From the NCBI GenBank assembly GCA_001790815.1, contig MGDU01000003.1, forward strand, positions 1-40,386: a DNA stretch of 40,386 bases, given 5' to 3'. How positions within the stretch are numbered: position 1 is the stretch's first letter; every line of letters begins with the position of its first letter. Shown here piece after piece: positions 1 through 37,811 of this stretch. The DNA comes from Candidatus Uhrbacteria bacterium RIFCSPHIGHO2_02_FULL_46_47. Its GTDB lineage: Bacteria; Patescibacteriota; Patescibacteriia; GWA2-47-26. A program made the translations under genes and the position numbers. The notes beneath the pieces are model-generated. The model worked only from the letters and a program-made list of their open reading frames with translations. It was not told the origin of the DNA and searched no databases.

Positions 1-67
1 CAGGGAAAGACAATGGATACCCCGCCTCAGCTTCGTTTATTCACCTAGGGCCATGCCGTTGGTCATA

Positions 68-567: not shown

Positions 568-770
568 GGTAAGGGGTGGTGAGAGGATGTTATGGCAATT
601 TCACAATCGATCCCCCTCCCTCATACGGGAGAGGGGAGGCCTGCCCGCCTTGGGTGGGGTGAGGGTTTGTCTCATTCAACAATTCCCCCCCCCTCTTAAG
701 TTAAGAGGGGGTAGGGGGAGTTATGCCTGCCCGCCTCGGGCGGGACAATTCAACAACCTCCCCACCGCAC
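568..770. repeat. Intergenic GC-rich inverted repeats
   Basis: No gene is supported in this stretch. It is built from repeat pieces that recur in the window: a CCCTCCCTC...GGGAGAGGG arm pair near 612-640, a palindrome CCCCCTCTTAA-G-TTAAGAGGGGG at 689-711, and a CCCGCCTCGGGCGGG block near 730-744. The last block also occurs upstream of modules 2 and 3. It leads directly into the palindrome-promoter module at 771. Confidence 0.6.
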
Positions 771-871
771 AAACGGCTCAATAATTTGCGATCGCAAATA
801 GTTGAGCCGTTTGGTATTTGCGTTAAGTCCAATGTCGCCGACTTGCAAAATCATCTCCTCGAGTGTATCAT
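771..871 (+). promoter_or_regulatory. Cassette module 1: 42-bp palindrome plus promoter
   Basis: Positions 771-812 form a palindrome with outer arms AAACGGCTCAA and TTGAGCCGTTT and an inner perfect palindrome ATTTGCGATCGCAAAT (784-799). It is followed by conserved sequence and a sigma70-type promoter: TTGCAA at 843-848, a 17-nt spacer, and TATCAT at 866-871. The 84 bases from 771 to 854 are identical in all four copies of the module. It precedes NYN copy 1. The palindrome could be an operator, a recombination site or an RNA hairpin in read-through transcripts. The promoter role is supported by spacing and conservation. Confidence 0.7.
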
Positions 872-1019
872 ACTAATCACAATCAGCTGCCTAAACCCGT
901 AGGTCAAGGCGCGGGCATGGCATAAAAAAACCGAACAGGGGAAAATAAAAGAATATGAAACTCAAAAGAAAAATTTTGCGTACATCGACGGCGCAAACTT
1001 ACATAAGGGAATAGGGGAT

Positions 1020-1496
1020 TTGGGATGGGAACTTGACTATCGGCGGTTTCGTGTCTGGTTGAAAGAAAAATATCATGTGGTGAATGCCTACTTGTTTATT
1101 GGTTTTGTCGCAAAGAATAAGAACCTCTATACGTATCTTCAGGAAGCCGGATTTATCCTTGTATATAAAGAAGTAACCTATGACGGTAGAGGCATGGTAA
1201 AAGGCAATTGTGATGCGGCGCTCGTATTAAAAACTGTTTGTGATTTTTATGAAAAGAAATGTGACGGCGCGGTGATCGTTTCAGGCGACGGTGATTATGC
1301 TGAATTGGTCCAGTTTCTGAAAGAGAAAAACGCACTCCGTATCGTTATCTCCCCAAGCAATAAATGCTCGTATTTATTACGAGAGCAGAATATACCGTTA
1401 CTGTATCTTGCTACTCAGCAGAAAAAATTTGAGGCATATAAATATAAAGAAAAAGCCCCCGGTGCAGACGAAACCGCACAAGGGTCTTCTTCATAG
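1020..1496 (+). CDS. NYN-domain (PIN-like) nuclease, copy 1, N-terminus out of frame
   Basis: The product resembles bacterial NYN-domain proteins (LabA/PIN-like fold, predicted metal-dependent RNases). From the TTG at 1020 the frame reads GWELDYRRFRVWLKEKY, then AYLFIGF, LYTYLQEAGF, VKGNCDAALVLK and VSGDGDYAELV. The conserved acidic residues are in GNCDAAL and SGDGDY. The family's first catalytic motif, FAYIDGANLHKG, lies upstream in the same frame (about 978-1013), but no usable start codon precedes it in that frame. The natural ATG at 955 (MKLKRK...) is one base out of frame, because an A5 run (972-976) has one A fewer than needed. Translation from the TTG would lack the DGAN aspartate. The unit is either a pseudogene, a slippage-dependent gene, or affected by a sequencing error shared by both copies. 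A 16-bp palindrome (1493-1508) spans the stop codon. Confidence 0.7.
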   Translation: MGWELDYRRFRVWLKEKYHVVNAYLFIGFVAKNKNLYTYLQEAGFILVYKEVTYDGRGMVKGNCDAALVLKTVCDFYEKKCDGAVIVSGDGDYAELVQFLKEKNALRIVISPSNKCSYLLREQNIPLLYLATQQKKFEAYKYKEKAPGADETAQGSSS

Positions 1497-1560
1497 TGAT
1501 ATCACTATCATAGCATAACAAGCGCTTGTTTGTCAACCATCCTTTATCCACATCACTTTA

Positions 1561-1590
1561 AATGTCATCCCCGCGAAAGTGGGGATCCAG
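1561..1590. repeat. CCCCGCGAAAG hairpin repeat, copy 1
   Basis: The sequence ATGTCATCCCCGCGAAAG... carries a CCCCGC/GTGGGG stem over a GAAA-type loop, followed by GGATCCAG. This family of short palindromic elements is widespread between bacterial genes. Here it follows the NYN stop codon and recurs at 2459-2488 and 3601-3629. It may also help end transcription, although it has no T-run. Confidence 0.6.
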
Positions 1591-1668
1591 TTTGTCCCTC
1601 TCCCTCGCATGGGAGAGGGGAGGCCTGTCCGCCTCGGGCGGGACAATTCAACAATTTCCCCACCGCAC

Positions 1669-1769
1669 AAACGGCTCAATAATTTGCGATCGCAAATAGT
1701 TGAGCCGTTTGGTATTTGCGTTAAGTCCAATGTCGCCGACTTGCAAAATCATCTCCTCGAGTGTATCAT
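1669..1769 (+). promoter_or_regulatory. Cassette module 2: palindrome plus promoter
   Basis: This copy is identical to module 1. The palindrome is at 1669-1710, TTGCAA at 1741-1746, a 17-nt spacer follows, and TATCAT is at 1764-1769. It precedes NYN copy 2 and belongs to the exact tandem duplication. Confidence 0.7.
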
Positions 1770-1917
1770 ACTAATCACAATCAGCTGCCTAAACCCGTAG
1801 GTCAAGGCGCGGGCATGGCATAAAAAAACCGAACAGGGGAAAATAAAAGAATATGAAACTCAAAAGAAAAATTTTGCGTACATCGACGGCGCAAACTTAC
1901 ATAAGGGAATAGGGGAT

Positions 1918-2394
1918 TTGGGATGGGAACTTGACTATCGGCGGTTTCGTGTCTGGTTGAAAGAAAAATATCATGTGGTGAATGCCTACTTGTTTATTGG
2001 TTTTGTCGCAAAGAATAAGAACCTCTATACGTATCTTCAGGAAGCCGGATTTATCCTTGTATATAAAGAAGTAACCTATGACGGTAGAGGCATGGTAAAA
2101 GGCAATTGTGATGCGGCGCTCGTATTAAAAACTGTTTGTGATTTTTATGAAAAGAAATGTGACGGCGCGGTGATCGTTTCAGGCGACGGTGATTATGCTG
2201 AATTGGTCCAGTTTCTGAAAGAGAAAAACGCACTCCGTATCGTTATCTCCCCAAGCAATAAATGCTCGTATTTATTACGAGAGCAGAATATACCGTTACT
2301 GTATCTTGCTACTCAGCAGAAAAAATTTGAGGCATATAAATATAAAGAAAAAGCCCCCGGTGCAGACGAAACCGCACAAGGGTCTTCTTCATAG
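1918..2394 (+). CDS. NYN-domain (PIN-like) nuclease, copy 2, identical to copy 1
   Basis: Every residue matches copy 1, and the short A-run that puts the upstream ATG (1853) out of frame with the catalytic YIDGANL motif is shared. If copy 1 is inactive, so is this one. The unit has its own palindrome-promoter module 898 bp downstream of the first, so both would be transcribed independently. NYN proteins often occur in accessory and defence-related neighbourhoods, and rhuM and Bro-N neighbours fit that setting. The function on cellular or phage RNA is inferred from the fold only. Confidence 0.7.
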   Translation: MGWELDYRRFRVWLKEKYHVVNAYLFIGFVAKNKNLYTYLQEAGFILVYKEVTYDGRGMVKGNCDAALVLKTVCDFYEKKCDGAVIVSGDGDYAELVQFLKEKNALRIVISPSNKCSYLLREQNIPLLYLATQQKKFEAYKYKEKAPGADETAQGSSS

Positions 2395-2458
2395 TGATAT
2401 CACTATCATAGCATAACAAGCGCTTGTTTGTCAACCATCCTTTATCCACATCACTTTA

Positions 2459-2488
2459 AATGTCATCCCCGCGAAAGTGGGGATCCAG
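2459..2488. repeat. CCCCGCGAAAG hairpin repeat, copy 2
   Basis: Exact copy of the element at 1561-1590, carried along by the tandem duplication. It lies between the second NYN stop codon and module 3. Confidence 0.6.
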
Positions 2489-2566
2489 TTTGTCCCTCTC
2501 CCTCGCATGGGAGAGGGGAGGCCTGTCCGCCTCGGGCGGGACAATTCAACAATTTCCCCACCGCAC

Positions 2567-2667
2567 AAACGGCTCAATAATTTGCGATCGCAAATAGTTG
2601 AGCCGTTTGGTATTTGCGTTAAGTCCAATGTCGCCGACTTGCAAAATCATCTCCTCGAGTGTATCAT
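2567..2667 (+). promoter_or_regulatory. Cassette module 3: palindrome plus promoter
   Basis: The palindrome is at 2567-2608, TTGCAA at 2639-2644, and TATCAT at 2662-2667 after 17 nt. It matches modules 1 and 2 up to base 2667, then diverges from 2668 onward. The divergence continues in the stretch after CCCGTAGG, just before the Bro-N start. The switch to new sequence therefore falls at the module-gene junction. Confidence 0.7.
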
Positions 2668-2729
2668 TCTAATCACAATCAGCTGCCTAAACCCGTAGGG
2701 AAACCCGCGGGCATGGCACAGAAATAAAT

Positions 2730-3572
2730 ATGAAACACAATAAACAGATCGCCTTGTTTGAAGGTCAAAAAATCCGCCGGCACTGGGACGCAGAAAAAGA
2801 GCTATGGTATTTTTCGGTGGTGGATATTATTCAGGCACTTATTCAACAGGCGGACTATCAAACTGCCAGAAAGTATTGGAATAAGCTTAAAGAACGGCTC
2901 AAAAAGGAGGGAAATGAGTCGGTGACAAATTGTCACCAACTGAAATTTACGGCCTCCGACGGAAAATTATACCTCACCGACGCCGCGGACGTAGAAACAA
3001 TTCTGCGTCTTATTCAATCCGTACCCAGTCCAAAAGCAGAGCCGATTAAATTATGGCTTGCGCGGGTGGGCTACGAAAGAATCCAAGAAACCACGGATCC
3101 TGAAAAATCTATTAATCGAGGCAGAACGAATTGGCAAAGAATGAGGCGAAGCGAAAAGTGGATCCAGCAAAGGATGATGGGGCAAGAGATACGAAACAAG
3201 CTTACGGATTATTGGAAAAACAGCGAGGTTAAGGAACAGGACGAGTATGCGATACTCACCAACATTATCCATCAAGAATGGAGCGATTTGACGGTAAAAG
3301 AGCATAAGGATCTGAAGAATCTGAATACCCAGAATTTACGCGATCACATGTCGGATGCCGAGCTGGTGTTCACGGCTTTGGCAGAACTTTCTACGCGGCA
3401 GATTGCCGAAACAATGCAAACGAAAGGTTTTGAGGAAAATAAAATTCCGGCTAAAAAAGGCGGCCGCATCGCCAAGAACGCCCGCAAAGAATTGGAAAAT
3501 AAAACCGGGAAAAAAGTCGTCAGTGGTGAGAACTATTTACCATCCTCAAAAACAACGAAGAAGCTAAAGTAA
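2730..3572 (+). CDS. Bro-N / DinD-like protein
   Basis: A 280-residue protein. The N-terminal part (about 1-105) looks like a BRO family N-terminal domain, the DNA-binding module of phage antirepressors: IRRHWDAEKELWYFSVVDII, then LYLTDAADVETILRLIQSV. The C-terminal part (about 180-280) resembles E. coli DinD, the LexA-regulated DNA-damage-inducible protein that antagonises RecA: LKNLNTQNLRDHMSDAELV followed by ALAELSTRQIAE. The C-terminus is lysine-rich. The ATG at 2730 follows a short A-rich leader 63 nt after the module 3 -10 box. It is a single-gene cassette with its own promoter and sits between NYN copy 2 and the protease cassette. Antirepressor or RecA-modulating activity is inferred from the family. 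Confidence 0.8.
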   Translation: MKHNKQIALFEGQKIRRHWDAEKELWYFSVVDIIQALIQQADYQTARKYWNKLKERLKKEGNESVTNCHQLKFTASDGKLYLTDAADVETILRLIQSVPSPKAEPIKLWLARVGYERIQETTDPEKSINRGRTNWQRMRRSEKWIQQRMMGQEIRNKLTDYWKNSEVKEQDEYAILTNIIHQEWSDLTVKEHKDLKNLNTQNLRDHMSDAELVFTALAELSTRQIAETMQTKGFEENKIPAKKGGRIAKNARKELENKTGKKVVSGENYLPSSKTTKKLK

Positions 3573-3600
3573 AACAATGTCATTGCGCCTGCCCTAATCA

Positions 3601-3629
3601 ATGTCATCCCCGCGAAAGCGGGGATCCAG
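3601..3629. repeat. CCCCGCGAAAG hairpin repeat, copy 3
   Basis: Same element as at 1561 and 2459, here with a perfect CCCCGC/GCGGGG stem. It lies 28 nt after the Bro-N stop codon, the same relative place it occupies after the NYN genes. The stretch 3573-3743 otherwise holds a CTCTCCC...GGGAGAGG repeat (about 3681-3720) and no gene. Confidence 0.6.
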
Positions 3630-3743
3630 CAATAATTTCCCTCCCTTAAGGCGCGGGAGGGGTAGGGTGGGTTATGAGATATGTCCCTCTCCCTCGCATG
3701 GGAGAGGGGAGGGTGAGGGTGTCCGTGCAATCTCCCCACCCCC

Positions 3744-3844
3744 AAACGGCTCAATAATTTGCGATCGCAAATAGTTGAGCCGTTTGGTATTTGCGTTAAG
3801 TCCAATGTCGCCGACTTGCAAAATCATCGTCCTGACTGTATCAT
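3744..3844 (+). promoter_or_regulatory. Cassette module 4: palindrome plus promoter with diverged spacer
   Basis: The palindrome is at 3744-3785. TTGCAA (3816-3821) and TATCAT (3839-3844) are unchanged and 17 nt apart, but five of the 17 spacer bases differ from modules 1-3. Unchanged hexamers around a drifting spacer are good evidence of a working promoter. The likely start site is near 3851, leaving about 185 nt of leader before the protease gene at 4036. That leader contains no convincing gene. Confidence 0.7.
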
Positions 3845-4035
3845 ACTAATCACAATTCTCTGCCTAAACCCGTAGGATAAACCCGCGGGCATGGCACAAA
3901 ATCCCTCAACAGGACAAACAGCTCGTCGTCAGAGCACTCTTACTGGATCATGTCTCGAAAGAGGCATGGGTGGTCGCAAGGCCATCGCTGGCGGCGGGCT
4001 TTGTGTTTTTAATCAAAATGAAGTAGAATCAATAT

Positions 4036-5994
4036 ATGAAAAACTATTTAAAAATTGGGTTGTTGCTGATCCTTGCATTAGTACCACTCCATTCAAGTCA
4101 AGCAATCACACAAACCCAAATCAATTCCTTAGTACATGTCGTCTGTCCTGGTCAAAATGATACTTGGTTTAGTGGTTCAGGCACGATCATTGATTCAAAA
4201 GGTATTGTTCTAACTAATAAGCATGTTGTTACCGATCAGTCTGGTAATATCATACGATATTGTGCAATTGGGCTTACAAAAAGTATTAGTAGACCGCCAT
4301 CATTCGATTATACTGCCGAAGTTAAATATTATACGACAGACGAAAATTTAGACGCAGCGATTTTATATATTGATAACAAAAATAATACAACATTCCCCTC
4401 GGTCAATGCGTTTAGTTACGATACTGGTAATCTCAAGCTAGGAGATGGTATTGAGGTCATTGGTTATCCATCAATAGGGGGCAACACGGTAACGTACGTC
4501 AATGGTGTAATGAGCGGTATTCAAGAAAACTACATAAAGACAACAGCACCACTTGAGCATGGAAATTCAGGCGGTTCCGCATATACCTTTAACGGAGATT
4601 TTATTGGTGTGCCGACAGCCGTCGTTGCCGGTTCACTTAACTCCTTAAGTTATGTTCTGGATGTGAATAAATTAAAAATTTGGTTGCAATCAATGTTGGG
4701 TTCAACATCATTGCCGGTATTCAGGCCGGATATACAAAGCAATATTACGGTAAGTAAAGATGTTACACCACCTGATGCATCAAATGCTATCGCTTCTGTT
4801 TATAATGACTCACAGAAAAGTTTAGTTTTGGATTTTAGTAATTCTCAAAATTCTCGAAATCCTTATTTTGAGTGGAGTGGATTTAATGATCCTAGTGGTA
4901 TTAGTGGGTATTACGTTTATTTCGGCTCTGATATTAACGCTAAACCAATTACTGCTGGAGTTTTCACAAATACTAGCAATTTTAATGGATTAATCAATAC
5001 AGAGGGTATTTATTATTTGATAATTCAGGCTCAGGATGAACAAGGTAATATTACAAATCCAGTTTATTGGAACTATCATTATCAAATTTCACCACCATTA
5101 ATAGAATTAAATCCATTGGGTCGGAAGATTAATGAAAATCGTCCCACAAAGATTTATATTTATTCTTACGATAACGGAATGAAGGGAGACTTACTGAAGA
5201 TTATCTATTTGGATATTTCTAAAGTGCAACCCGTCTCTATTCCAACCAATAGCGTTTATATCGAATGGGATGGTATTAATGATAAAGATTTTATTATTGA
5301 CACGAAGGTGCGCTTTAAGGAAGGAAGAACATGGTCAAAATGTAGTTCGAAGGGTGATATATGGTGGAATTTGGGCATTGAGCCAGGTTCTAAAGAATGG
5401 GGCGAGTGGAATACATGCAATGAAGGGTACAGATCGAAGGAGTTTGTATCTACTAAAGATAATTTTTTCACACTCAATAATCTAGATTTAAATAAACCGT
5501 ATAATTTTGAAATGGAGTTGTATATTATTAATAATGGGAAATATGAACAGGCAGATGGTTTTCATATTTTTTCTTTGACACCAACAAAAACTATATCTCA
5601 AGAAAGTGAAACAAAAAATAATAGTTTGACTGGAAGAATATTGTTACAGGTAGAATCTCACGGTGAGGCGTGGTACATTTACCCCGGAAATCAAAAAAGG
5701 TATTACCTCGGACGCCCAGCAGATGCTTTTAATGTAATGCGTAAGCTGGGTTTGGGAGCAAAGCACGACCTCATAATGAACACCACAGTTTTTCCAGTGT
5801 CGCTAGCTGGCAAGATATTGTTAGATGTCGAATCGCATGGTGAGGCGTATTATATTTATCCAAAGGATAGAAAGAAATATTATTTAGGGCGCCCAGATGA
5901 CGCATTCAATGTAATGCGCAATCTAGGTTTAGGCATTTCAAACACTAATCTCAATAAAATTTTAGTTGCGCCAGACTCCGCCTTGCCGAATTGA
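4036..5994 (+). CDS. Secreted trypsin-like (S1C/HtrA-type) serine protease with C-terminal surface repeats
   Basis: A 652-residue exported protease. Residues 1-23 form a signal peptide (hydrophobic LKIGLLLILALVPLHSSQA). A chymotrypsin-fold domain covers about 25-220 with the full catalytic triad: His63 in LTNKHVV, Asp106 in NLDAAIL and Ser178 in GNSGGS. A fibronectin-type or Ig-like segment follows (about 245-350, ISGYYVYFG and YYLIIQAQDEQGN), then a region I do not recognise. Two 42-residue repeats (533-574 and 592-633) begin GRILLQVESHGEAWYIYP and GKILLDVESHGEAYYIYP and end with YYLGRP and FNVMR; I associate such repeats with exported CPR proteins. There is no PDZ domain. The gene is visibly A+T-rich compared with the core genes, suggesting transfer. 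Its stop codon overlaps a possible TTG start of the next gene. It is the first gene of a three-gene cassette behind module 4. Confidence 0.85.
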   Translation: MKNYLKIGLLLILALVPLHSSQAITQTQINSLVHVVCPGQNDTWFSGSGTIIDSKGIVLTNKHVVTDQSGNIIRYCAIGLTKSISRPPSFDYTAEVKYYTTDENLDAAILYIDNKNNTTFPSVNAFSYDTGNLKLGDGIEVIGYPSIGGNTVTYVNGVMSGIQENYIKTTAPLEHGNSGGSAYTFNGDFIGVPTAVVAGSLNSLSYVLDVNKLKIWLQSMLGSTSLPVFRPDIQSNITVSKDVTPPDASNAIASVYNDSQKSLVLDFSNSQNSRNPYFEWSGFNDPSGISGYYVYFGSDINAKPITAGVFTNTSNFNGLINTEGIYYLIIQAQDEQGNITNPVYWNYHYQISPPLIELNPLGRKINENRPTKIYIYSYDNGMKGDLLKIIYLDISKVQPVSIPTNSVYIEWDGINDKDFIIDTKVRFKEGRTWSKCSSKGDIWWNLGIEPGSKEWGEWNTCNEGYRSKEFVSTKDNFFTLNNLDLNKPYNFEMELYIINNGKYEQADGFHIFSLTPTKTISQESETKNNSLTGRILLQVESHGEAWYIYPGNQKRYYLGRPADAFNVMRKLGLGAKHDLIMNTTVFPVSLAGKILLDVESHGEAYYIYPKDRKKYYLGRPDDAFNVMRNLGLGISNTNLNKILVAPDSALPN

Positions 5995-5999
5995 TAGAA

Positions 6000-6230
6000 A
6001 TGAATCTTATGCGAGTTCAATTTACGCAATTATTTCGAAGAAACGAGAACGGCGCACTTACCCCACTTAGTCCTGTTAATATAAATGGAATAGTTTTCGG
6101 GCCCGGTGTTTCCTTTGGTCCAGGTGTGGTTTTTGGCGGAGTTAATCTTTTTGATTTTGTTAACGATGCAATTGAAGCGGATCAAATAAATGGTGTATGG
6201 GTAATACGGGGATTTTACAAGAATCAATAA
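6000..6230 (+). CDS. Small protein with repeated FGPGV motif, function unknown
   Basis: About 76 residues. The core is GIVFGPGVSFGPGVVFGGV, three near-hexad repeats of the type (V/I)xFGPG that suggest a short beta-helical or beta-roll turn, followed by an acidic segment and VWVIRGFY. I do not know a function. A TTG at 5991 overlaps the protease stop codon, and ATGs at 6000 and 6009 are equally possible starts. I chose 6000 because it keeps the gene tight behind the protease without relying on a TTG. The next gene starts 4 nt after its stop, so the three genes are probably cotranscribed and may cooperate. Confidence 0.6.
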   Translation: MNLMRVQFTQLFRRNENGALTPLSPVNINGIVFGPGVSFGPGVVFGGVNLFDFVNDAIEADQINGVWVIRGFYKNQ

Positions 6231-6234
6231 TTTT

Positions 6235-6825
6235 ATGAATGACAAAGAAGATCCACAACGTCTCATTTCTCTTGAGGAATCTATAAAGCAGAGTAAGGAA
6301 AAACTTGATAAGCTAGAGGCTTTTGATGTAAAAATTTATGTCCAGGAAAAAATAAAGGAAGTTGAACAGAAAATAGATTCCAGCAAAATTAATGTTATTG
6401 AGGCACTGGGAATTTTCGTGGCACTCTTCACGTTCATTGCTGTTAATGTTCAGGTATTTAGTAAAATAAATGATTTGGGTTCCGCAATGTGGTTTATGTT
6501 GGTAATGGGCGGTATAACATTGACGATACTATTATCAGTAGAAATATTGATTAGTGGCCGTCAACAGCACTCAACTTCAGGAAAATTGACTTGGTTTCAA
6601 AGTTTGATAGAGGTTACAATTAGTAAATTTGGGTTTTTAATTTTGTTGGCCGCTTTAGAAGTGGTAGCTGGATTTTATTTTACCTATAAAAATCAAGTTC
6701 AGCTCAACAATAGCGCAAGCACAAGTACTAAAGTGGAGATTCAAGCCGACATTCAATCAAAGAGTGACAGCGATGTTATTATTGACGCCAAGGATTTAAA
6801 CAAGTTACTGCCAAAAGGACTATAA
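6235..6825 (+). CDS. Coiled-coil membrane protein with three transmembrane segments
   Basis: 196 residues, not recognised as a named family. Residues 5-50 are charged and heptad-like (SIKQSKEKLDKLEAF ... IKEVEQKI), consistent with a coiled coil. Three hydrophobic segments follow at about 54-75, 85-107 and 131-151. The last 45 residues are polar. This layout suggests a membrane anchor or sensor with a cytoplasmic coiled coil. It is the last gene of the protease cassette, with its ATG 4 nt after the previous stop codon. Whether it controls or receives a signal from the secreted protease is speculation based on linkage. Confidence 0.65.
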   Translation: MNDKEDPQRLISLEESIKQSKEKLDKLEAFDVKIYVQEKIKEVEQKIDSSKINVIEALGIFVALFTFIAVNVQVFSKINDLGSAMWFMLVMGGITLTILLSVEILISGRQQHSTSGKLTWFQSLIEVTISKFGFLILLAALEVVAGFYFTYKNQVQLNNSASTSTKVEIQADIQSKSDSDVIIDAKDLNKLLPKGL

Positions 6826-28031: not shown

Positions 28032-31000
28032 ATGGCACGGAAATTGTTGCAATTTTTTCTAAAAACATCGGCAGTCATCTTTTTCTTAAAGGAGAAAATG
28101 ATTAAAACGAATGGATTGTTCAAAACTGCCCTCTACGCGGTAGTAATAATTTTAATGGAGTTTATATTCGCGATTATATCGCTTCCGCTTTTTTTGCTTG
28201 TTTCGCCCCACAAGCTTCAGGAAAAAGGATTTATTTTTCCAATAGGCAAGTTGGAGCATCCGCATCTTAAAAGTTACGCGATGCGCAGAAAAATAAGCAT
28301 TGCGACTATCGGCGGCGCCGGAGGAATTTTTATTGCCAAGATATTATTTATCAGTATTGTGTCTTCCTATCTTCTTGGCGTACAGCCGCTACTTGCCGCT
28401 ACATTTGATTGGACTTTTGGTGCTTCAAGTGATTTTTCCTTTGATAGTTCAAAAATTGAAGTAACTGGAGGAGTTGCTAGACTTAAAAATTTAGGAACTA
28501 CTACCAGCGGTGCTACGACAAACTCCGGGTTTACCACTGATGCTACAGGCTGGACTTATGCGGATTGGGATCAAGGCGGCGGCGAGTCAAATGTTACTGG
28601 AGCGCACCAGTCATCCGGCGGAAATACCGGCGGATGGATTAATGTGAATTTTCCATCCGGATCAAATGATGAATTTGGCGGATATTGGCGACAAGGGTTT
28701 ACCACCACCGGAGATAATCCAACCACAACGGTTAGTTTTGATTGGCAAGTGACGGCATTTGATTCTACGCCTGCTCCTATAACTTTTAAGCTGTTTGCGT
28801 TTGTTGATACTGGTACAGGAGTTCCGGTAATTGGACAAGAAGTATGGACATCAGGAGAAATTACTGGAACAAGCGCATGGGCGGCAGTCAGTAGTTTTGA
28901 TGTGTCCGCAAAAGTGACCACCGCCGGCACTTATTATTTAAAAGTTGCGGTATGGCTAGAAACTCCGGGATCTTCAACCGGTCCGTTTACATTAGGATTT
29001 GATAATGTGGCACTTAATTGGACAAAAACAACCAATATTTTTGACACCAGTAGGCCAACAATTTATCCCAACACAGCGCTTACGCCTAGTCACGTGGCAA
29101 GCTGGAATTCATTTACTGAAACCGCGACAAAAAATGGTGGGGAAATATATTATCAGCTTTCCGATGATAACGGAGTAACCTGGAAATTCTGGAATGGATC
29201 ATCATGGGCAACAGCCGGCGCTGGAAATTATAATACCGCAACAGCTGTAAATACAAACATCGCAAGTTTTCCAACCGCGCCAAATCAAATAAAATGGAAT
29301 GCATTTTTGGAAAGTGATGGAACCCAGCAGGTTATTTTGGATACTGTTACGATTGGCTATACTGATAATGATCCGCCGGATATTTTGAATCTAGCCGGCG
29401 CACAGCAAACCTCAAATGGTCGGGTATATGTGACTTATGATTTGCAAGATGACAACAGCGATCCCTCAAGTTTGGTAACTTATGAATACTCGCTTACCGG
29501 CGCGTTTGCCGGCGAGCAAACAGCCATGACTGCGGATACTGGCGATGTGAACCACAGCGGCGTGTCGGGACTAACCAGTTCTCTTACTGGCACAGCCCAT
29601 ACTTTTGTTTGGAATGCCGGAGCAGATCTTGGCGCGGTGTATAACACAACCGTATATGCGCGTTTGCGCGCCAACGATGGAATCACAAATGGCGCGTATG
29701 CCTCTTCATCCGCATTTACGGTTGATTACGTTGTGCCAACTGTATCTAATGTGTCTGCAGCGCAAACTTCCGGCACAACCAATGTGGCCATCTCCTATGA
29801 TGTTTCCGACAATACCGCTGATAATCTTTTGCTAGAAGTGGATATTTCCGAAGATGGAGGAGCAACCTGGACAGTGACGGACACATCTGTTTCAGGCAAT
29901 GTTGGCTCCGACGTTACCTCTGGAGTTGGTAAGAGCATTACCTGGTCCGCAGGTACGGATTTTGCAAATCAGCAGCAAAGTGACATTCAAGTCAGAGTGC
30001 GGGCAAAAGATAAATATCAAAATCAAGGTGTAAATGTTGCATCTGTGAACTTTAGTTTAGATACTTTGCCGCCAGTAACCCTTACTGCCTCTGATCTTCT
30101 TTCCCAACCCGTCTCCGGAGATACTGCTGTGCTTATCGGTGGATCATTTACTGAAACCAATCCCAACACCAATGATTTCTATGTTGCCATAAATGGCGAA
30201 TCCTATGGTTCAGCCACCTCCGGTACCGGAAATACTGCCACTCCGTCAAATCAATCCACCGCGGTTGGCGCCATCCTTGACGGCAATGACTACATTTCCA
30301 AAGTCAAAATTACGCACACTGATGACTTTGGCCAAGCAACCAATAATGAAAACACCTCGTCGGCCACTGCGTACAAGTATGTGAAACCATACACGCCGCA
30401 AGCGCCCACGCTCTCCAACCCAGTGACGACACGACTGGATCTTCTTGTAAATCCGAATGCGTCTGAGGCGAGTAGCCTTGAGTACGCAATACAGGAGACC
30501 ACAACGGGCAATTACGCGCAAGGCAACGGTACCTTAGGCGTTTCCGCGGTGTGGCGCGCGCTTGGCACATCAGCCGGACAATGGGGCGATGGGCTTGCAG
30601 TATCCGGAAAAGTGCGCGTAACCGGGCTGACCTCGCCGGTGGCAAATTATATTTTCAAAGTAAAATCGCGCAATATCTCAGATGGCGCGCACGCCTCTTC
30701 CTCGGAGTCGGCTTTTTCCGCCACCGCGCAAATTACCAATACCGCGCCGTCTATAACGTTTAATACAGTGGCGCAACCCACAGATGGCACACAGTATGTC
30801 AATGTAAACTATACCGGCACGGACGGCCAAGGCGATATTGCATCTCTTGATGTTGCGCAGTACTCCACTGATAACAGCACATGGTCGGCAATGGCAGAAA
30901 AAAGCGGCGCGGGATCCGAAGGAACCGCGAATTTGACATTTTTGTCAACCGGAAGCGCGCATATTTTTGCTTGGGATTCCGGAGCGGATTTGCCCAATGT

Positions 31001-34000
31001 TGAGGATGACACGGTTTATGTGCGTTTGCGCGGAAATGACACCCTTTTAAGCGGGACAACTGCAACCGCATCAGCATTGGCAGTAGATAATAAAGCGCCA
31101 GTTGTTGCGAACGCGACTGCGGCGCAAGATGTTGGCGCGCGCACTGTAACAATTACTTATGATCTGACAGAACATAATACTTCAACCGTGGTTTTTGAGA
31201 TTTCACAAGACGGCGGGTCAACATGGACTGTGACGACAACTTCCGCTTCAGGCGCATTAGGCGCTGGCGTAACAGCCGGCACGGGAAAAATAATTGCCTG
31301 GAATGCCGGTACGGATTTTGATAATCAGTATCAAATTGATATGCGCGTGCGCTTGCGCGCTACTGATACAAAGGGCAATGCCAGCGCGTACGCGCAGTCC
31401 GCGAATTTTACGGTTGATACCAATGATCCGGTGGTCTCCAATGTGACAGCGGCGCAAGATTCCGGGGCTAATACTTTTACCTTTAATTATGATGTTTCCG
31501 AGGATGCGGGGAATGTAACAGTGGGACTTGAAATTTCAGGTGACGGAGGGTCTACCTGGACCGTGCCTATAACTTCCGCCGCTGGCGCGGTGGGCGCGGG
31601 AGTTACGCCAGGCACGGGAAAAACAATTACTTGGAATGGCGCGACTGATTATAATAATCAGGAAAAGACCAACATGAAAATCAGAATTACAGCCACGGAC
31701 GGATTTAGCAATAACGTCAGCGCTTCTTCAGCGAATTTTTCTTTGGATACCAAAGCGCCGCGGGTTACCAATATGAGCGCCGCGCAAGTTGCCGCCTCTA
31801 CCAATGTTACATTTACTTATGATCTTGCTGATCAAAATACCTCACTTGTGGAATTGGATATTTCCGAGGATTCCGGCGCAACTTGGACTGTGACGGATAC
31901 ATCAGTTTCCGGAAATGTGGGAAGCAGTATATCAGCCGGAGCAAGTAAAACAATAACTTGGGCCGCCGGCACGGACTTTGATGAGCAACAACAAGTGGAT
32001 TTGCGCGTGCGCGTGCGCGCAAATGACCCTTATAATAATCAATCTGCCAATGCCTCATCAGTTGATTTTTTCCTTGATACGCTAAATCCGGCTGTGCTTA
32101 CTTCCACCGATCTCCTTTCCCAGCCCGTCTCCGGAGACACCACTGTGCTTATTGGCGGATCATTTACGGAAACCAATCCCAACACCAATGATTTTTACGT
32201 GGCGATAAATGGAGGCGCGTACGGTTCAACCACTTCTGGCACTGGAAATACTGCCACCCCATCAAACCAAGCCACTGCCGTGGGAGCTACCCTTGACGGC
32301 AATGATTATATTTCCAAAGTAAAGATTGTCCACACTGATGATTTTGGCCAAGCCGCGGTGAACGAAAATACTTCTCCCACAACTTCACTCAAGTATGTAA
32401 AGCCATACACGCCCTCGGCGCCGACAGTGGATAATCCGGCAGTTGGCACAGTTGATGTTTTGATAAATCCGCACGCCTCAGAAACAACTGGCTTGGAATA
32501 CGCGATTTTTGAAACTTCGCAGACAAAATATGTGCAAAGCAATGGCACTCTTGGCGCATCTGCCGTATGGCAAACTCTTGGAGTCGGGGCAGGTCAGTGG
32601 GGTCAAACTTCCGGCGTGTCCGGGAAAATTATCGTGAATGGTTTAGCCACACACTCATACTTGTATCAATTTAGGGTAAAATCGCGCAATACTTCTGACG
32701 GCGCGCACGTCAGCTCAAGTGAAAGCGCTCTTTCAAGCGGAACTTCCTCAACCAACCAATCACCAACCATTTCGCTTAATTCCGTAGTACAAACAACAGA
32801 CGGAACAAAGTATGTAACGGTAAATTACACAATAAGCGATCTTGAAAGTGAGAGTGTGAGTTTAGTTGTGGTTCAGTACTCAACTGATGGCACGATTTGG
32901 GAAACTATGACGGAAAAGACAGGAGCGGGAAGTCAGGGAACTGCCGGACTGTCAACAAGCTCCGCTGGACAAACACACACTTTTGTATGGGATGTTGCCA
33001 CTGACCTAGTCAATAAAGAAAATAATACAGTTTATGCGCGCCTGCAAGCAAATGACGGCACATCAAATGGCGGCCTGGCAACTTCCAGCGCGTTTACAGT
33101 TGATACAAAAATTCCTGTGATTTCCCAAGTCAATGCTTCTCAAGTGAGCGGGTCTAATAATGTCACTTTTACCTATAAATTGACTGATTTATCGCAATCA
33201 AATGTAGAACTTGATATTTCAGAAGATGGCGGCGCAACTTGGACTGTTACTGATACAAATGTAAGCGGGGACGTGGGAAGCGGTGTAGCATCCGGCACGG
33301 GAAAAACAATTACTTGGAGCGCGGGCGTTGATTTTGATGAGCAAGAGCAATCTGATTTGCGCGTACGCGTTCGCGCGACTGACGCGTATGGCAATGCCGG
33401 TATCAATGCCTCCTCTGCTAACTTTACACTGGATACTAAAAATCCTGTGGTTGGGAGTGTTACTGCTTCTCAAAATTCCGGTTCCACCAGTGTAACGATT
33501 GCTTATACACTTGCGGATACCAATACCTCCACGGTTGAACTTGATATTTCAGAAGATAATGGCGCCACATGGAGTGTAACTGATACAAGCGTAAGCGGAA
33601 ACGTGGGGTCAGGAATTACCGCTGGAAGCAAGACAATTACCTGGAGCGCCGGTACGGATTTTTCAGGACAAGAGCAATCTGATTTGAAAGTGCGTGTGCG
33701 CGCAACTGATACATTTGCCAATGCCAGCGGCAATGTTGAATCCAACGCATTTTCTTTAGATACCAAAGCCCCAACCATTTCTAATCTTTCCGCATCACAA
33801 ACACTTAATTCTCAAAATGCAGTATTTACCTACACGCTTTCAGATAGCGGGCCAGTAACCATGGTTTTGGATATTTCCAGCAATGGGGGGAATTCCTGGG
33901 GTGTTACAGACACCAGCGTAACAGGGGATATTGGCGCAGAAATTACGGCAGGATCCAAAACGATTACATGGAACGCAGGCACGGATTTTTCTGGAAATGA

Positions 34001-37000
34001 TGAAACAGATATGCGAATACGGCTTCGCGGTACGGACAGTTCAAATAATGTAAGCGCGTTTGTGGAATCAGCAAATTTTAGTGTTGATACCAAAGCGCCT
34101 GTTGTGCAAACAAGCGCGGATTTGAAAGCCCAGCCAAGTGCTGGTGACACTACTGTGCTTATTGGCGGATCATTTACTGAGAGCAATCCCAACACCAGTG
34201 AGTTCTTTGTTGCTCTAAATGGAGGATATGGCGGAGCTACCGCGGGAGGCAGCAATACTGCCGCGCCTGCTGATCAGGCAACTGCGGTAGGCGCAACCTT
34301 AGACGGAAATGACGTAATATCAAAAGTAAAAATCGTGCATACTGATGATTTTGGCAAGAGCGCGACAAATGAAAATACTTCTCCCAATGCTGATCTGAAA
34401 TACGTAAAACCCTACACTCCGCAGGCGCCAACCGTAAACAATCCGCAAAATACATCAGTAGATATTACGATTAATCCTCATGCCAGCGAAGCCGCAGGAC
34501 TGAAGTACGCGATTTACGAAGAAACTACTAATAAATACGCAAGCGATACTAATCCGCTTACTTTAAAAAATAGTCCGGATTGGAAAACCTTGGGAGTGGG
34601 CGCAGGTGAGTGGGGACAGATTTCTGGAGTTTCCGGTAAAATTACGCTTACTGGTCTTTCTTCGCCAGTTGCGCAATATAGATTTAAAGTGAAATCCAGA
34701 AATATCTCTGATACGTTAAATCGCGCCAGCAGTGAAAGCGCTTTATCTGCCGTGGCGGCCATAGCCAATACAGCGCCCACAGTTGCGATTGTAAGCGCCG
34801 CACAAGCAACCAGTGCTTCCTATGTTACGATTAATTATACAGGCACTGATGCGCAAAATGACACCAATAACCTTGTGTTTGAGCAGTATTTGCGAGATGG
34901 AACAGTATGGAATACCATGACTGAAAAATCCGGAGTTGGATCTGAAAGTTTAACCGGTCTTGCTTTTAGCGCAAGTGGAACAAATCATGTGTTTGCCTGG
35001 GATGCGGCTACTGACATTGCCAGTACAGAAGATTCAACAGTTTATATTCGCTTGCAATCCACGGATACGCTTATAAATAGCAATACAGCAACTTCATCAG
35101 CATTTACAGTTGATACGCTGGGGCCCGCAATAACTAATATCAATGTAAGTCAAACGCCGGCAACAGGGGATGTGGTTATTGATTACGACTTAGATGACAT
35201 TTCCGGAGCAGATAATACAGTTGAACTTTCCGTTTCGGATAATAATGGGCAAGCATATAAAACTCCTAGTATCGGATCAGTCAGCGGTGATGTTGGATCT
35301 GGAATTTCAGCAGGCAAGAGCAAGAGAATCAATAATAAAGCCAAAGATGATTTTCCCAATAACGAAACAAGCAATGCCAAAGCAAAAATACGCGCGACTG
35401 ACAAATACGGCAATGTCAGCACGCAGGAATCCGGACATTTTACTTTTGATACCAAAAAGCCAGTAGTGCAAAATGTGAGCGCCTCCCAAGGGGCCGGATC
35501 AACTGATGTGGCAATCAGTTATGAACTTACAGATGGCACGCCTGCTGGACATCTTATAGCATTTGAAGTATCTGAAGATGGCGGTACAACATGGACTGTG
35601 ACCGCAACAACAACAACCGGTGAGGTTGGGACAGGGCAGACCACTGGCACCAAATCATTTACTTGGAAAGCAGGAGCAGATTTTTCAGGAAAAACTAAAA
35701 CTGCAATGCGTCTGCGCGCGCGATCGCTTGATTATTTTGGCAATCAAGGTTCATTCGCGCAGTCAGCCGATTTTGCTTTAGATACGGAAGCGCCGTCAAT
35801 TGGCAATATGGCGGTTGCGCAAACGCTTGAAAAACGCGAGGTTGAGATAAACTACGATCTTAACGAATTTTCCAACCAATCAATTTTGGTCTTGGAAATC
35901 TCTTCTGATGGCGGTGCAAGCTGGACAGTTGCCACCACCACTGCTTCCGGAGATATTGGCGCATCAGTTCCCTCAGGCGCGCAGAAAAAAATAATCTGGA
36001 ATGCCGAAGCAGATTTCCCGGATCAGGAAAAATCAAATGTCCGTACGCGCCTTAAAGGAACAGATACATTTGGAAATCAAAGCATGTTTTACGAATCAGC
36101 GGATTTTTCAGTTGATACTGCCGCGCCGCTTGGATTGGCTTCTTTTAGCAAATTTTCCGCAACTGAAACTTCAGCAACAGTAAATTGGGCAACCGTAACA
36201 GACGCGCATTTTAGCCGTTTTGAGCTTTGGCATGGTACAAGTGAAGCTGATGTGCAAAATAGAAGCGGAAGCGCTCAAAAGTGGGGGTCGGACAATGATA
36301 GCGCGCTTGCCATCGCAACAACCAGTGCCACGGTTATTACCGGAATTTCCACGACTGGCAATTATTATGTAAAAATTTGGGCTATTGACGCGCATGGCAA
36401 TGAGAAAACTGTTGATCATATTAATGTATTTACGTCTTTTGCCGCGCCTCCCGGGCTAGAGCGACGCGGAAGTACCGCGCCTCCGCCTTCGCCTCCGCCT
36501 GGTATTGTGCAAGATACGACTGCGCCGGGAAAACCAATTCTTTCTTCTGTTGCAACGCCGACCAAGGATAAAACCATCAAGATTTCCGGTTTAGCTGAGG
36601 CAGACTCATCAATCAATATCTATGATAAAGAAGTATTGATAGAACATTTGACGACAAAAACCGATAAAAACAGCGAATTTGAACATACACTCGTATTTGA
36701 AGAAGGGGAGCATGTGCTGACTGTGCGCGCGATTGATGAATCAGGAAATGTGAGCGACGGATCTGATCCGGTAAATGTTACTGTTGATCTTACCGCGCCT
36801 GCCTCCCCAATTCTGCTTAGCCATCATGATGGCGATAGAGTGACTGAAGAAACGATCACTCTTTTGGGTGTAACTGAATCATTTGCAAAAGTGGAAATTA
36901 CATTTGATGGCGAGACACCTTTTGAAGTATCCGCGGATGAAAACGGCGGCTGGACATTTATTTTGCCAAATACATTTGCGCTTGAAATTGGCACGCATGA

Positions 37001-37811
37001 AATTACCGCGCGCGCGTTTGATCTTGCAGGCAATCGCAGTAAAGATGTAAAGATACGCATTGAACGAATTGAACCTGTGGCGCAAATTCCTTTGTCTTCT
37101 GAAGCGGAGATTACTCCTCCGACTGAAGAAGTTCCTTCTGCGGCGCCTGAAGCGGCTGTGCCAGAAGCCTTGCCAAGAGGAGCGCCGTCACTTCCGGGGG
37201 TGGTGGAAGCGCCAACAGTCGGCGTTGGTCCGGGCGCAGTAGAGGCGCCTTTGGCGCCGTCAATTCCTGTTCCATCCGTAGAGATTATTCGCGAAACAAC
37301 TGAAGCAATTGAACTTCCAGGCGTGCCTGCGCCAAAAATTGTAACAATTGTCGTTCCTGAAAAGGTGGAAGAAGAAAAGCCAAAAGGAAAAGTTATATCG
37401 TCAATACGAGAAAAAGTTAGAGAAGCGATAAAAGAGCCGGTGCAAGGAAAAATCTTTACCTTTAGCGGAACTGCCTTGCCAAAAGCAGATGTGGTTATTT
37501 ATATTCACAGCGCCCAAGCGGTTATCTATCGCACTAAAGCTTCTAAAGACGGTATTTGGACTATTCGCCATTCTCAAGATATTCTTGCGCTTTCCCCCGG
37601 CGTGCATACTATTTTTGCCGTAAGTCTTGATCCAAAAGCAAAAGTAAAAAGCCGGCCAAGCCCGGTCGCGCAATTTACCGTAACCAAAAATAAATGGGTC
37701 GCGCTATTTCAATATCTTAATTTGCCAACCACGGCAGCGACCGTAATCTTTCTGATGTTTACGGTTGCATGGCTTTATAAGGTGCGCAGTAAAAGAGAAG
37801 CAGTCTTATGA
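28032..37811 (+). CDS. Giant repeat surface protein (3259 residues) with Asp-box Ig-like domains
   Basis: Two N-terminal helices (about 33-57 and 90-115) and a C-terminal helix (about 3233-3250) with a basic tail anchor the protein. After a jelly-roll-like region (about 125-445) come four domain types. A domains (about 110 residues, ten copies) mostly carry the SxDxGxTW Asp-box, for example SEDGGATW. C domains occur four times. B modules (SGDT.VLIGGSFTE.NPNT) and FN3-like F domains (YVKPYTPxAPT... FKVKSRN) occur three times each. The order is C-A-B-F, C-A-A-A-B-F, C-A-A-A-B-F, C-A-A-A. An FN3 domain (about 2699-2800), two bacterial Ig domains (2832-3010), a Pro/Glu/Ala-rich stalk (3015-3137) and a final Ig-like domain (from 3139) follow. 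It lies 3 nt after its miniature relative and overlaps the glycosyltransferase gene by 4 nt (ATGA). Adhesion or an extended cell-surface fibre is the likely role. Confidence 0.8.
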   Translation: MARKLLQFFLKTSAVIFFLKEKMIKTNGLFKTALYAVVIILMEFIFAIISLPLFLLVSPHKLQEKGFIFPIGKLEHPHLKSYAMRRKISIATIGGAGGIFIAKILFISIVSSYLLGVQPLLAATFDWTFGASSDFSFDSSKIEVTGGVARLKNLGTTTSGATTNSGFTTDATGWTYADWDQGGGESNVTGAHQSSGGNTGGWINVNFPSGSNDEFGGYWRQGFTTTGDNPTTTVSFDWQVTAFDSTPAPITFKLFAFVDTGTGVPVIGQEVWTSGEITGTSAWAAVSSFDVSAKVTTAGTYYLKVAVWLETPGSSTGPFTLGFDNVALNWTKTTNIFDTSRPTIYPNTALTPSHVASWNSFTETATKNGGEIYYQLSDDNGVTWKFWNGSSWATAGAGNYNTATAVNTNIASFPTAPNQIKWNAFLESDGTQQVILDTVTIGYTDNDPPDILNLAGAQQTSNGRVYVTYDLQDDNSDPSSLVTYEYSLTGAFAGEQTAMTADTGDVNHSGVSGLTSSLTGTAHTFVWNAGADLGAVYNTTVYARLRANDGITNGAYASSSAFTVDYVVPTVSNVSAAQTSGTTNVAISYDVSDNTADNLLLEVDISEDGGATWTVTDTSVSGNVGSDVTSGVGKSITWSAGTDFANQQQSDIQVRVRAKDKYQNQGVNVASVNFSLDTLPPVTLTASDLLSQPVSGDTAVLIGGSFTETNPNTNDFYVAINGESYGSATSGTGNTATPSNQSTAVGAILDGNDYISKVKITHTDDFGQATNNENTSSATAYKYVKPYTPQAPTLSNPVTTRLDLLVNPNASEASSLEYAIQETTTGNYAQGNGTLGVSAVWRALGTSAGQWGDGLAVSGKVRVTGLTSPVANYIFKVKSRNISDGAHASSSESAFSATAQITNTAPSITFNTVAQPTDGTQYVNVNYTGTDGQGDIASLDVAQYSTDNSTWSAMAEKSGAGSEGTANLTFLSTGSAHIFAWDSGADLPNVEDDTVYVRLRGNDTLLSGTTATASALAVDNKAPVVANATAAQDVGARTVTITYDLTEHNTSTVVFEISQDGGSTWTVTTTSASGALGAGVTAGTGKIIAWNAGTDFDNQYQIDMRVRLRATDTKGNASAYAQSANFTVDTNDPVVSNVTAAQDSGANTFTFNYDVSEDAGNVTVGLEISGDGGSTWTVPITSAAGAVGAGVTPGTGKTITWNGATDYNNQEKTNMKIRITATDGFSNNVSASSANFSLDTKAPRVTNMSAAQVAASTNVTFTYDLADQNTSLVELDISEDSGATWTVTDTSVSGNVGSSISAGASKTITWAAGTDFDEQQQVDLRVRVRANDPYNNQSANASSVDFFLDTLNPAVLTSTDLLSQPVSGDTTVLIGGSFTETNPNTNDFYVAINGGAYGSTTSGTGNTATPSNQATAVGATLDGNDYISKVKIVHTDDFGQAAVNENTSPTTSLKYVKPYTPSAPTVDNPAVGTVDVLINPHASETTGLEYAIFETSQTKYVQSNGTLGASAVWQTLGVGAGQWGQTSGVSGKIIVNGLATHSYLYQFRVKSRNTSDGAHVSSSESALSSGTSSTNQSPTISLNSVVQTTDGTKYVTVNYTISDLESESVSLVVVQYSTDGTIWETMTEKTGAGSQGTAGLSTSSAGQTHTFVWDVATDLVNKENNTVYARLQANDGTSNGGLATSSAFTVDTKIPVISQVNASQVSGSNNVTFTYKLTDLSQSNVELDISEDGGATWTVTDTNVSGDVGSGVASGTGKTITWSAGVDFDEQEQSDLRVRVRATDAYGNAGINASSANFTLDTKNPVVGSVTASQNSGSTSVTIAYTLADTNTSTVELDISEDNGATWSVTDTSVSGNVGSGITAGSKTITWSAGTDFSGQEQSDLKVRVRATDTFANASGNVESNAFSLDTKAPTISNLSASQTLNSQNAVFTYTLSDSGPVTMVLDISSNGGNSWGVTDTSVTGDIGAEITAGSKTITWNAGTDFSGNDETDMRIRLRGTDSSNNVSAFVESANFSVDTKAPVVQTSADLKAQPSAGDTTVLIGGSFTESNPNTSEFFVALNGGYGGATAGGSNTAAPADQATAVGATLDGNDVISKVKIVHTDDFGKSATNENTSPNADLKYVKPYTPQAPTVNNPQNTSVDITINPHASEAAGLKYAIYEETTNKYASDTNPLTLKNSPDWKTLGVGAGEWGQISGVSGKITLTGLSSPVAQYRFKVKSRNISDTLNRASSESALSAVAAIANTAPTVAIVSAAQATSASYVTINYTGTDAQNDTNNLVFEQYLRDGTVWNTMTEKSGVGSESLTGLAFSASGTNHVFAWDAATDIASTEDSTVYIRLQSTDTLINSNTATSSAFTVDTLGPAITNINVSQTPATGDVVIDYDLDDISGADNTVELSVSDNNGQAYKTPSIGSVSGDVGSGISAGKSKRINNKAKDDFPNNETSNAKAKIRATDKYGNVSTQESGHFTFDTKKPVVQNVSASQGAGSTDVAISYELTDGTPAGHLIAFEVSEDGGTTWTVTATTTTGEVGTGQTTGTKSFTWKAGADFSGKTKTAMRLRARSLDYFGNQGSFAQSADFALDTEAPSIGNMAVAQTLEKREVEINYDLNEFSNQSILVLEISSDGGASWTVATTTASGDIGASVPSGAQKKIIWNAEADFPDQEKSNVRTRLKGTDTFGNQSMFYESADFSVDTAAPLGLASFSKFSATETSATVNWATVTDAHFSRFELWHGTSEADVQNRSGSAQKWGSDNDSALAIATTSATVITGISTTGNYYVKIWAIDAHGNEKTVDHINVFTSFAAPPGLERRGSTAPPPSPPPGIVQDTTAPGKPILSSVATPTKDKTIKISGLAEADSSINIYDKEVLIEHLTTKTDKNSEFEHTLVFEEGEHVLTVRAIDESGNVSDGSDPVNVTVDLTAPASPILLSHHDGDRVTEETITLLGVTESFAKVEITFDGETPFEVSADENGGWTFILPNTFALEIGTHEITARAFDLAGNRSKDVKIRIERIEPVAQIPLSSEAEITPPTEEVPSAAPEAAVPEALPRGAPSLPGVVEAPTVGVGPGAVEAPLAPSIPVPSVEIIRETTEAIELPGVPAPKIVTIVVPEKVEEEKPKGKVISSIREKVREAIKEPVQGKIFTFSGTALPKADVVIYIHSAQAVIYRTKASKDGIWTIRHSQDILALSPGVHTIFAVSLDPKAKVKSRPSPVAQFTVTKNKWVALFQYLNLPTTAATVIFLMFTVAWLYKVRSKREAVL
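29373..36125 (+). repeat. Higher-order tandem repeat inside the giant gene
   Basis: Domain starts at nucleotide level: C at 29373, 30747, 32763 and 34776. A at 29736, 31098, 31428, 31758, 33114, 33444, 33771, 35124, 35460 and 35793. B at 30072, 32088 and 34098. The B-to-B spacing is about 2.01 kb twice, so a block of roughly 670 residues was duplicated. Stretches such as CTTATTGGCGGATCATTTAC are identical between copies, pointing to recent duplication or gene conversion. Confidence 0.75.

Follow-up and report, generated by a model that had tools for sequence, protein, structure and literature searches.

Repeated promoter modules in an Uhrbacteria genome carry the 5′ end of a LOOT RNA, a probable cis-acting leader of accessory genes

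The DNA analysed here, referred to as the window, is the whole 40,386-nucleotide stretch of the contig, and it contains four repeat blocks lying in the same direction. From 5′ to 3′, each block consists of a palindrome of about 44 bp, a promoter (TTGCAA-17-TATCAT) and the 5′ portion of LOOT, a known structured RNA (Rfam RF03000) (Table 1). An initial annotation had described four codirectional modules with 84 shared bases; these are real, with 86 consecutive identical bases common to the four blocks, all on the + strand (770-855, 1668-1753, 2566-2651 and 3743-3828), and the homology between blocks runs beyond the 84 bp through a hairpin that this annotation had left unnamed, the first LOOT hairpin, P1. 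The palindrome that it had placed in each module is likewise present (44-46 bp, 91% self-complementary, GCGATCGC centre) and is the strongest centred palindrome of the whole window. Its promoter assignment also held: the sigma-70-like promoter is conserved in all four blocks and is kept at 79% identity in a relative of the same family (G002). Because a single match at this score is at chance level, the promoter call rests on conservation.

Blocks 1 to 3 retain only P1 and then run into two NYN-domain genes and a Bro-N domain gene, whereas the complete LOOT of block 4 is followed by a gene for a secreted-type trypsin-like protease; the Pfam matches agree with the domains named originally. As first described, every gene stands behind a promoter module of its own, unlike integron cassettes. 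The genes had also been called unrelated to each other. They are accessory, and the NYN, Bro-N and protease genes do differ, but the two NYN genes are exact duplicates. The NYN unit is duplicated in tandem (759-1801 = 1657-2699, one mismatch, offset 898) and bounded by module copies, so that three different genes, not four, stand behind the blocks. A usable start is lacking for the NYN frame: at an A-run, the ATG at 954 (and at 1852) is shifted from it by one base. The pairing of LOOT with a protease gene was found again at another locus (L078).

Table 1. Positions of the repeat blocks, LOOT elements and downstream genes in the window.
Feature	Position	Strand	Evidence or remark
Block starts	770, 1668, 2566, 3742		same direction
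Palindrome copy 1	770..813	.	repeat and palindrome searches
Palindrome copy 2	1668..1711	.	
Palindrome copy 3	2566..2609	.	
Palindrome copy 4	3742..3787	.	
Promoter TTGCAA-17-TATCAT copy 1	843..871	+	conserved across the four copies and in G002
Promoter copy 2	1741..1769	+	
Promoter copy 3	2639..2667	+	
Promoter copy 4	3816..3844	+	
LOOT P1 only, copy 1 (tetraloop-receptor hairpin)	888..922	+	31.3 bits, own model R1; folded
LOOT P1 only, copy 2	1786..1820	+	
LOOT P1 only, copy 3	2684..2718	+	28 bits, own model R1
LOOT P1 of block 4	3861-3896	+	
Complete LOOT RNA, block 4	3861..3986	+	Rfam RF03000 model, 65.4 bits
Long helix 5′ strand AGCTCGTCGTCAG, block 4	3920..3932	+	
GAAA tetraloop of P4, block 4	3957..3960	+	proposed docking into P1 receptor
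Long helix 3′ strand CTGGCGGCGGGCT, block 4	3988..4000	+	beyond Rfam model
U-tract TTGTGTTTTT after long helix	4001..4010	+	near-invariant, terminator-like
NYN-domain gene copy 1	954..1496	+	PF01936
NYN-domain gene copy 2	1852..2394	+	duplicate of copy 1
Bro-N domain gene	2730..3572	+	PF02498; start 11 nt 3′ of P1
Secreted-type trypsin-like protease gene	4036..5994	+	PF13365 (Trypsin_2); after complete LOOT
Small gene	5991..6230	+	apparent homologue behind G002 LOOT locus
Membrane protein gene	6235..6825	+	apparent homologue behind G002 LOOT locus

Covariance model scores separated the blocks into two kinds. The block 4 RNA scored 65.4 bits against the RF03000 gathering cut-off of 46.4 bits, matching the whole model, including the P5 hairpin, with the P1 internal loop CCUAAA/CAUGG and a GAAA loop in P4 as in Rfam LOOT; our own model R1 gave 119.8 bits over 3861-4015. 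Blocks 1 to 3 stayed below the cut-off (21-22 bits) and reached 28-31 bits with R1 (E about 1e-5 to 1e-4) in P1 only; they are shortened LOOT relatives and not full members. LOOT RNAs above the cut-off occurred in 81/381 genomes of the class, with several copies per genome, and in 0/14 named control genomes. A P1 pattern search of public genome and viral contigs returned many non-LOOT matches, several of them in group I intron-like sequence, and pattern matches therefore entered the analysis only once the LOOT model had scored them. As a general rule, sharing of P1 among the LOOT copies of one genome was weak (mean identity 0.51 within vs 0.39 between genomes); four genomes (G132, G123, G101 and G192) show it clearly.

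The 11-nt tetraloop receptor has the sequence CCUAAG_UAUGG (PMC11381326). In the LOOT family the corresponding pairs were CCUAAA/CAUGG (56) and CCUAAC/UAUGG (20), and the GAAA loop was present in 97/99; judged by sequence, P1 is an 11-nt-like GAAA-tetraloop receptor. RNAalifold found, unprompted, a long 3′ helix that is missing from the Rfam model, whose conserved 3′ strand and U-tract lie beyond the modelled region. In its 5-pair core 95.5% of cells were paired, with two-sided changes in every pair; the covariation score of P1 plus the long helix was 0.645, vs 0.06-0.16 when slid, and the swap control gave 78 vs 12. The long helix shares sequence with P3 and is followed by the U-tract in 90/99 LOOTs. 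In 18/97 loci the P2 5′ strand recurs near the start codon, compared to 1.2 in swapped controls; most loci have no such copy. P2 is degenerate in the block 4 LOOT, which, though complete, may thus be unable to switch in the usual way. Enrichment of TATAAT-like hexamers ahead of LOOT was only modest (57/99 vs 34 by chance).

Rfam types LOOT as a free RNA ('Gene; sRNA'), and our literature search returned no description of its role, the one paper found to name LOOT RNA giving just its covariations. A trans-acting small RNA, positioned before genes only through promoter sharing, would fit this typing, the several copies per genome, and a conserved part ending in a helix and U-tract, which suits an independent RNA equally well. 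Against it, among 98 related LOOTs the following gene was codirectional in 93/97 (p = 5e-23), consistently close by, with a distance from LOOT to start codon of mostly 35-90 nt; the P2 strand copies were matched, locus by locus, to the start codon of the same locus; and the classes of downstream genes were biased (proteases, SNases, methylases, restriction enzymes and zinc ribbons). The genes downstream of LOOT are accessory and mostly membrane or secreted, a membrane-type segment being found in 77% of their proteins vs 30% of neighbours. Together, these data point to cis action and leave a trans-acting role unlikely.

The palindrome was examined separately from LOOT. Its pattern has 10 copies in the genome, four in the blocks and six elsewhere, vs 0 for the reversed control, and a chance origin of the copies is excluded. 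The six other copies have no attached promoter, LOOT or cassettes; they precede RNase P RNA and a PaaX/Cas2-like gene on contig C22 (both assigned by eye), occur in further intergenic settings, or fall within lysS. That the lysS copy is an in-frame insertion was rejected, as alignment shows no length change relative to G001; the frame is open, and relatives carry other palindromes at the same codons. The palindrome was also rejected as a LOOT component, being missing from the LOOT loci of relatives. It is a dispersed element unrelated to LOOT that lies upstream of the promoter. Like REP/RPE-type repeats it is short, dispersed and mostly intergenic, with one copy within a reading frame; unlike them it has only about 10 copies, and lysS is not lengthened by it. 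If it were instead a functional unit, a repressor or activator site duplicated with the promoter and placing the genes in one regulon, its position about 30 bp upstream of the -35 box of every block and the copies preceding RNase P RNA and the PaaX/Cas2-like gene would be accounted for. The homologous LOOT promoter of G002 lacks it, however, that genome giving one weak palindrome match, and the remaining copies are intergenic in other contexts or within lysS. We consider a regulatory site somewhat less probable still than a trans-acting RNA.

The array had initially been read as a possible gene-capture platform, each block being a recombination site, through palindrome or module, that takes in new genes. 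Tandem accessory genes of one direction separated by repeats do recall integron cassettes, and unrelated accessory genes behind identical promoter modules, a palindrome at 10 sites and the exact NYN duplication could all be cited in favour. A search with the 84-bp core nevertheless found these four copies only, which that annotation had itself named as refuting the idea, and the palindromes at other sites stand without the remaining module parts. NYN homologues were present in 28/95 genomes and Bro-N homologues in 21/95, and the 18 homologous loci examined have no LOOT leader, indicating that the module is not carried along with these genes. No IntI or tyrosine recombinase was detected among the proteins scanned in the window, and the sole PF00589 match of the genome lies on another contig (C1). 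In integron cassettes an attC-like site stands at the 3′ end; here the repeat precedes each gene on its 5′ side, supplying a promoter and an RNA leader. After the core search, the palindrome search in 95 genomes, the homologue contexts and the recombinase search, capture is not supported and we regard it as the least probable of the alternatives. One half of that proposal stands: the exact NYN duplication is accounted for by homologous recombination between copies of the module.

A local origin is suggested by the one relative that shows synteny, G002, whose locus has a single degenerate LOOT leader at the block 4 position and a resident Bro-N gene with its own upstream region and no module, a further point against capture. 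This arrangement indicates that block 4 is ancestral, that blocks 1 to 3 are local duplications, and that the module was copied onto resident genes. Block 4 would thus be the ancestral complete unit of promoter, LOOT and protease gene; the palindrome-promoter-P1 piece would have been duplicated in this lineage onto resident NYN and Bro-N genes, and unequal homologous recombination from one module copy to another would afterwards have doubled the NYN unit. NYN and Bro-N proteins are cytosolic and atypical as LOOT clients, and blocks 1 to 3 may therefore have no regulatory meaning.

Our preferred reading, to which we give a probability of roughly 70%, is that the blocks are a promoter with a LOOT leader, locally duplicated in blocks 1 to 3, and that LOOT acts in cis to tune the downstream accessory gene. 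From its sequence features LOOT looks like a cis-acting attenuator. Transcription would start just 5′ of P1, and the GAAA loop of P4 would dock into the P1 receptor; the P3 5′ half could pair either locally or with the strand about 70 nt downstream, forming a GC-rich, terminator-like helix followed by the U-tract. In about a fifth of loci, the P2 5′-strand copy at the start codon may compete for the P2 3′ strand. Read-through, translation or both would then be tuned in response to a signal. Blocks 1 to 3 would have lost the switching part, so that their genes would be expressed without attenuation. LOOT resembles attenuation and translational riboswitch leaders in being a 5′ leader that has a promoter to itself and helices predicted to exclude one another, with a terminator-like helix and U-tract; a subset also has a start-codon strand that could compete for a leader helix. 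It differs in its clients, which are diverse accessory membrane, secreted and DNA-modifying genes and not one metabolic pathway.

LOOT probably controls its downstream optional genes in this bacterial group. More tentatively, and with slightly less than even odds in our judgement, it may be a widespread cis switch of Patescibacteria for floating surface, secreted, nuclease and restriction-modification genes, operating through a tetraloop-receptor fold, a terminator-like helix and some start-codon strand swaps, with promoter and P1 as a portable module copied onto new genes within a genome. With these data, a catalogued RNA yields a testable hypothesis, that of a cis leader whose 3′ end is defined, with a predicted contact between tetraloop and receptor, an alternative helix, and a client list dominated by membrane or secreted and DNA-modifying accessory genes. 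If true, the variable genes of Patescibacteria would have in LOOT a general means of control, with some cases where nothing beyond the promoter and first hairpin had been copied onto new genes.

Four plus-strand blocks, each preceding a gene that Pfam assigns to NYN (two copies), Bro-N or Trypsin_2, have 86 consecutive identical bases in common, confirming that the four-copy repeat described in the initial annotation is real. BLAST within the genome with a 92-bp repeat query returned exactly the four array sites, and the palindrome part alone matched six further sites, on contigs C1 (2), C2, C18 and C22 (2). A pattern search counted the palindrome 10 times in the window genome (reversed control, 0) and in none of 94 relatives, two of the same family included; a looser DNA search gave a single 35-bp match, in the family member G002. 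In lysS, the same codon positions hold different near-perfect palindromes, with the frame kept, in the window genome G000 and its family members G001 and G002 (loci L012, G000:C2:29368-29410; L389; L390). The G002 lysS palindrome occurs once more in that genome, similar CGATCG-centred palindromes lie on C10 and C20 of G000, and the minus-strand G000 lysS also carries a CCTCTCCC/GGGAGAGG-type intergenic repeat (PSPQPSPIKGEGEKQVPLPEGEEGRRTGEG) within its reading frame.

Rfam searches identified a complete LOOT, a structured RNA, in block 4 and sub-threshold matches in blocks 1-3. We built a covariance model, R1, from 76 LOOTs with 30 nt of 3' flank; it scored block 4, itself among the 76, at 119.8 bits and blocks 1-3 at 28-31 bits (E about 1e-5 to 1e-4). 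In blocks 1-3 LOOT is reduced to its first hairpin, P1, with the gene immediately after, and the array holds every one of the genome's four LOOT matches. Because every block matches LOOT, blocks 1-3 by P1 only, the shared module comprises the palindrome, the promoter and the LOOT 5' end. What chiefly explains the repeat is an already described RNA family, whose setting here is unusual in being partly truncated and duplicated; what truncation would entail in blocks 1-3 we can only infer.

Positions of the array features and of other features in the window
Feature	Position	Location	Detail
Shared repeat (starts)	770; 1668; 2566; 3743	Blocks 1-4	+ strand
Promoter		One in each of blocks 1-4	TTGCAA-17-TATCAT
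Sub-threshold LOOT matches	888; 1786; 2684	Blocks 1-3	Rfam
Complete LOOT RNA	3861-3986	Block 4	RF03000; Rfam 65.4 bits, cut-off 46.4
Long helix	3920-3932 with 3988-4000	Block 4	AGCTCGTCGTCAG with CTGGCGGCGGGCT
Tandem duplication	759-1801 = 1657-2699	Units 1 and 2	One mismatch, offset 898
NYN frame offset	954-985; 1852-1883	NYN copies 1 and 2	At A-run (GAAAAAT)
Near-consensus promoter	1507-1536; 2405-2434	Pointing back into NYN genes	TTGACA-18-TATGAT with TG; minus strand
Virulence_RhuM-family fragment	319-567	Contig end	C-terminal
Open frame	28032-37811		3259 aa

Unprompted, RNAalifold on 76 sequences formed a helix between the P3 loop region and a strand lying 3' of the Rfam model. The five core pairs of this long helix are 95.5% paired, with two-sided changes in every one; the covariation score of the core plus P1 was 0.645, compared with 0.06-0.16 after a shift of 1-3 columns, and a separate swap test found strong helices in 78 of 98 loci (12 expected). 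A near-invariant U-tract (CTTTGTGTTT or TTTTTTG) follows the 3' strand in 90/99, and in block 4 the long helix dominates the predicted minimum-energy fold. At the 3' end, the Rfam LOOT model lacks about 25 nt. Since the long helix draws on bases of the local hairpin P3, the two structures would compete, as the helices of attenuators do.

The P1 internal loop reads CCUAAA/CAUGG at 56 loci and CCUAAC/UAUGG at 20, resembling the known GAAA receptor CCUAAG_UAUGG (PMC11381326), and GAAA is present in the P4 region in 97/99, so that it likely docks into the P1 loop. GCCTAAACC-GAAA-GGCATGGC hairpins on viral contigs (L232, L253, L257, L263, L285 and others) have the same receptor-like internal loop, but belong to an unrelated RNA, in sequence resembling group I introns. 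Exact copies (at least 9 nt) of the P2 5' region end within 25 nt of an ATG at 18/97 loci versus 1.2 in swapped controls (for example, CCGACCAAGGCtATG in L054 and CCCAACCACaATG in L063), and could serve at the start codon as an alternative partner for the P2 3' strand.

The array had been proposed to be a capture platform, which our results do not support; they favour local duplication through homologous recombination. Units 1 and 2 are exact tandem copies of one another, and their identity stops where the block 3 leader starts to diverge, the mark left by unequal recombination between copies of the module. Relatives of NYN and Bro-N were present in 28/95 and 21/95 genomes, and none of the 18 such loci examined has a LOOT leader. 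In G002, a Bro-N homologue (78% identity) with different upstream sequence is followed by a single LOOT promoter with a degenerate LOOT, a 71-aa gene and, judged by eye, what appear to be homologues of the window's genes at 5991-6230 and 6235-6825. This layout and the 79% identity of the LOOT promoter part between the two genomes make it most likely that block 4 is where LOOT stood ancestrally and that the window lineage then copied the module upstream. The contig breaks at the Virulence_RhuM fragment, immediately ahead of the array, and the array may be longer than seen.

Outside the window genome, P1-only or degenerate leaders are rare (L107, Yanofskybacteria; L268, a viral contig; L091, in G002). 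Locus L089 of genome G031 is an independent small array, with two LOOT leaders (1613-1697 and 2307-2429) 694 nt apart that have near-identical P1 and unrelated downstream genes. Genomes G132, G123, G101 and G192 hold LOOT pairs alike in P1 and not in P2-P3; therefore, duplication of the leader 5' end is not unique to the window, and the average effect of P1 sharing within genomes is weak.

Both NYN frames lie one base off the only ATG, and homologues start in frame, indicating a frameshift common to both copies, slippage or a mistake in the assembly. The minus-strand promoter aimed back into each NYN gene contains a perfect palindrome (AACAAGCGCTTGTT) in its spacer, ATAGTGATATCACTAT overlaps or follows its -10, and it looks like a repressed antisense promoter. 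Elsewhere in the window, the 3259-aa frame has weak Ig-like and Reelin-type matches only and is probably a giant surface protein.

LOOT exceeded the cut-off in 27/95 relatives and in 81/381 class genomes, but in no genome of the 14 named controls. In our collection (98 relatives plus block 4), the downstream gene is codirectional in 93/97 (p = 5e-23), its start codon mostly 35-90 nt past the Rfam LOOT end. These client genes are mutually unrelated, including zinc-ribbon proteins (10), trypsin-like proteases (6), DNA methylases, staphylococcal-type nucleases, GmrSD and HsdR restriction proteins and others, with no housekeeping family among those shown; 77% encode a strong hydrophobic segment versus 30% of neighbouring genes. 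The LOOT-protease pairing recurs in L078, and a complete LOOT precedes a zinc-ribbon gene on an IMG/VR viral contig (L281, 2928-3080) that also encodes a terminase-like protein (assigned by eye). The behaviour of LOOT is that of a cis leader ahead of accessory genes, which it would regulate, possibly through a ligand.
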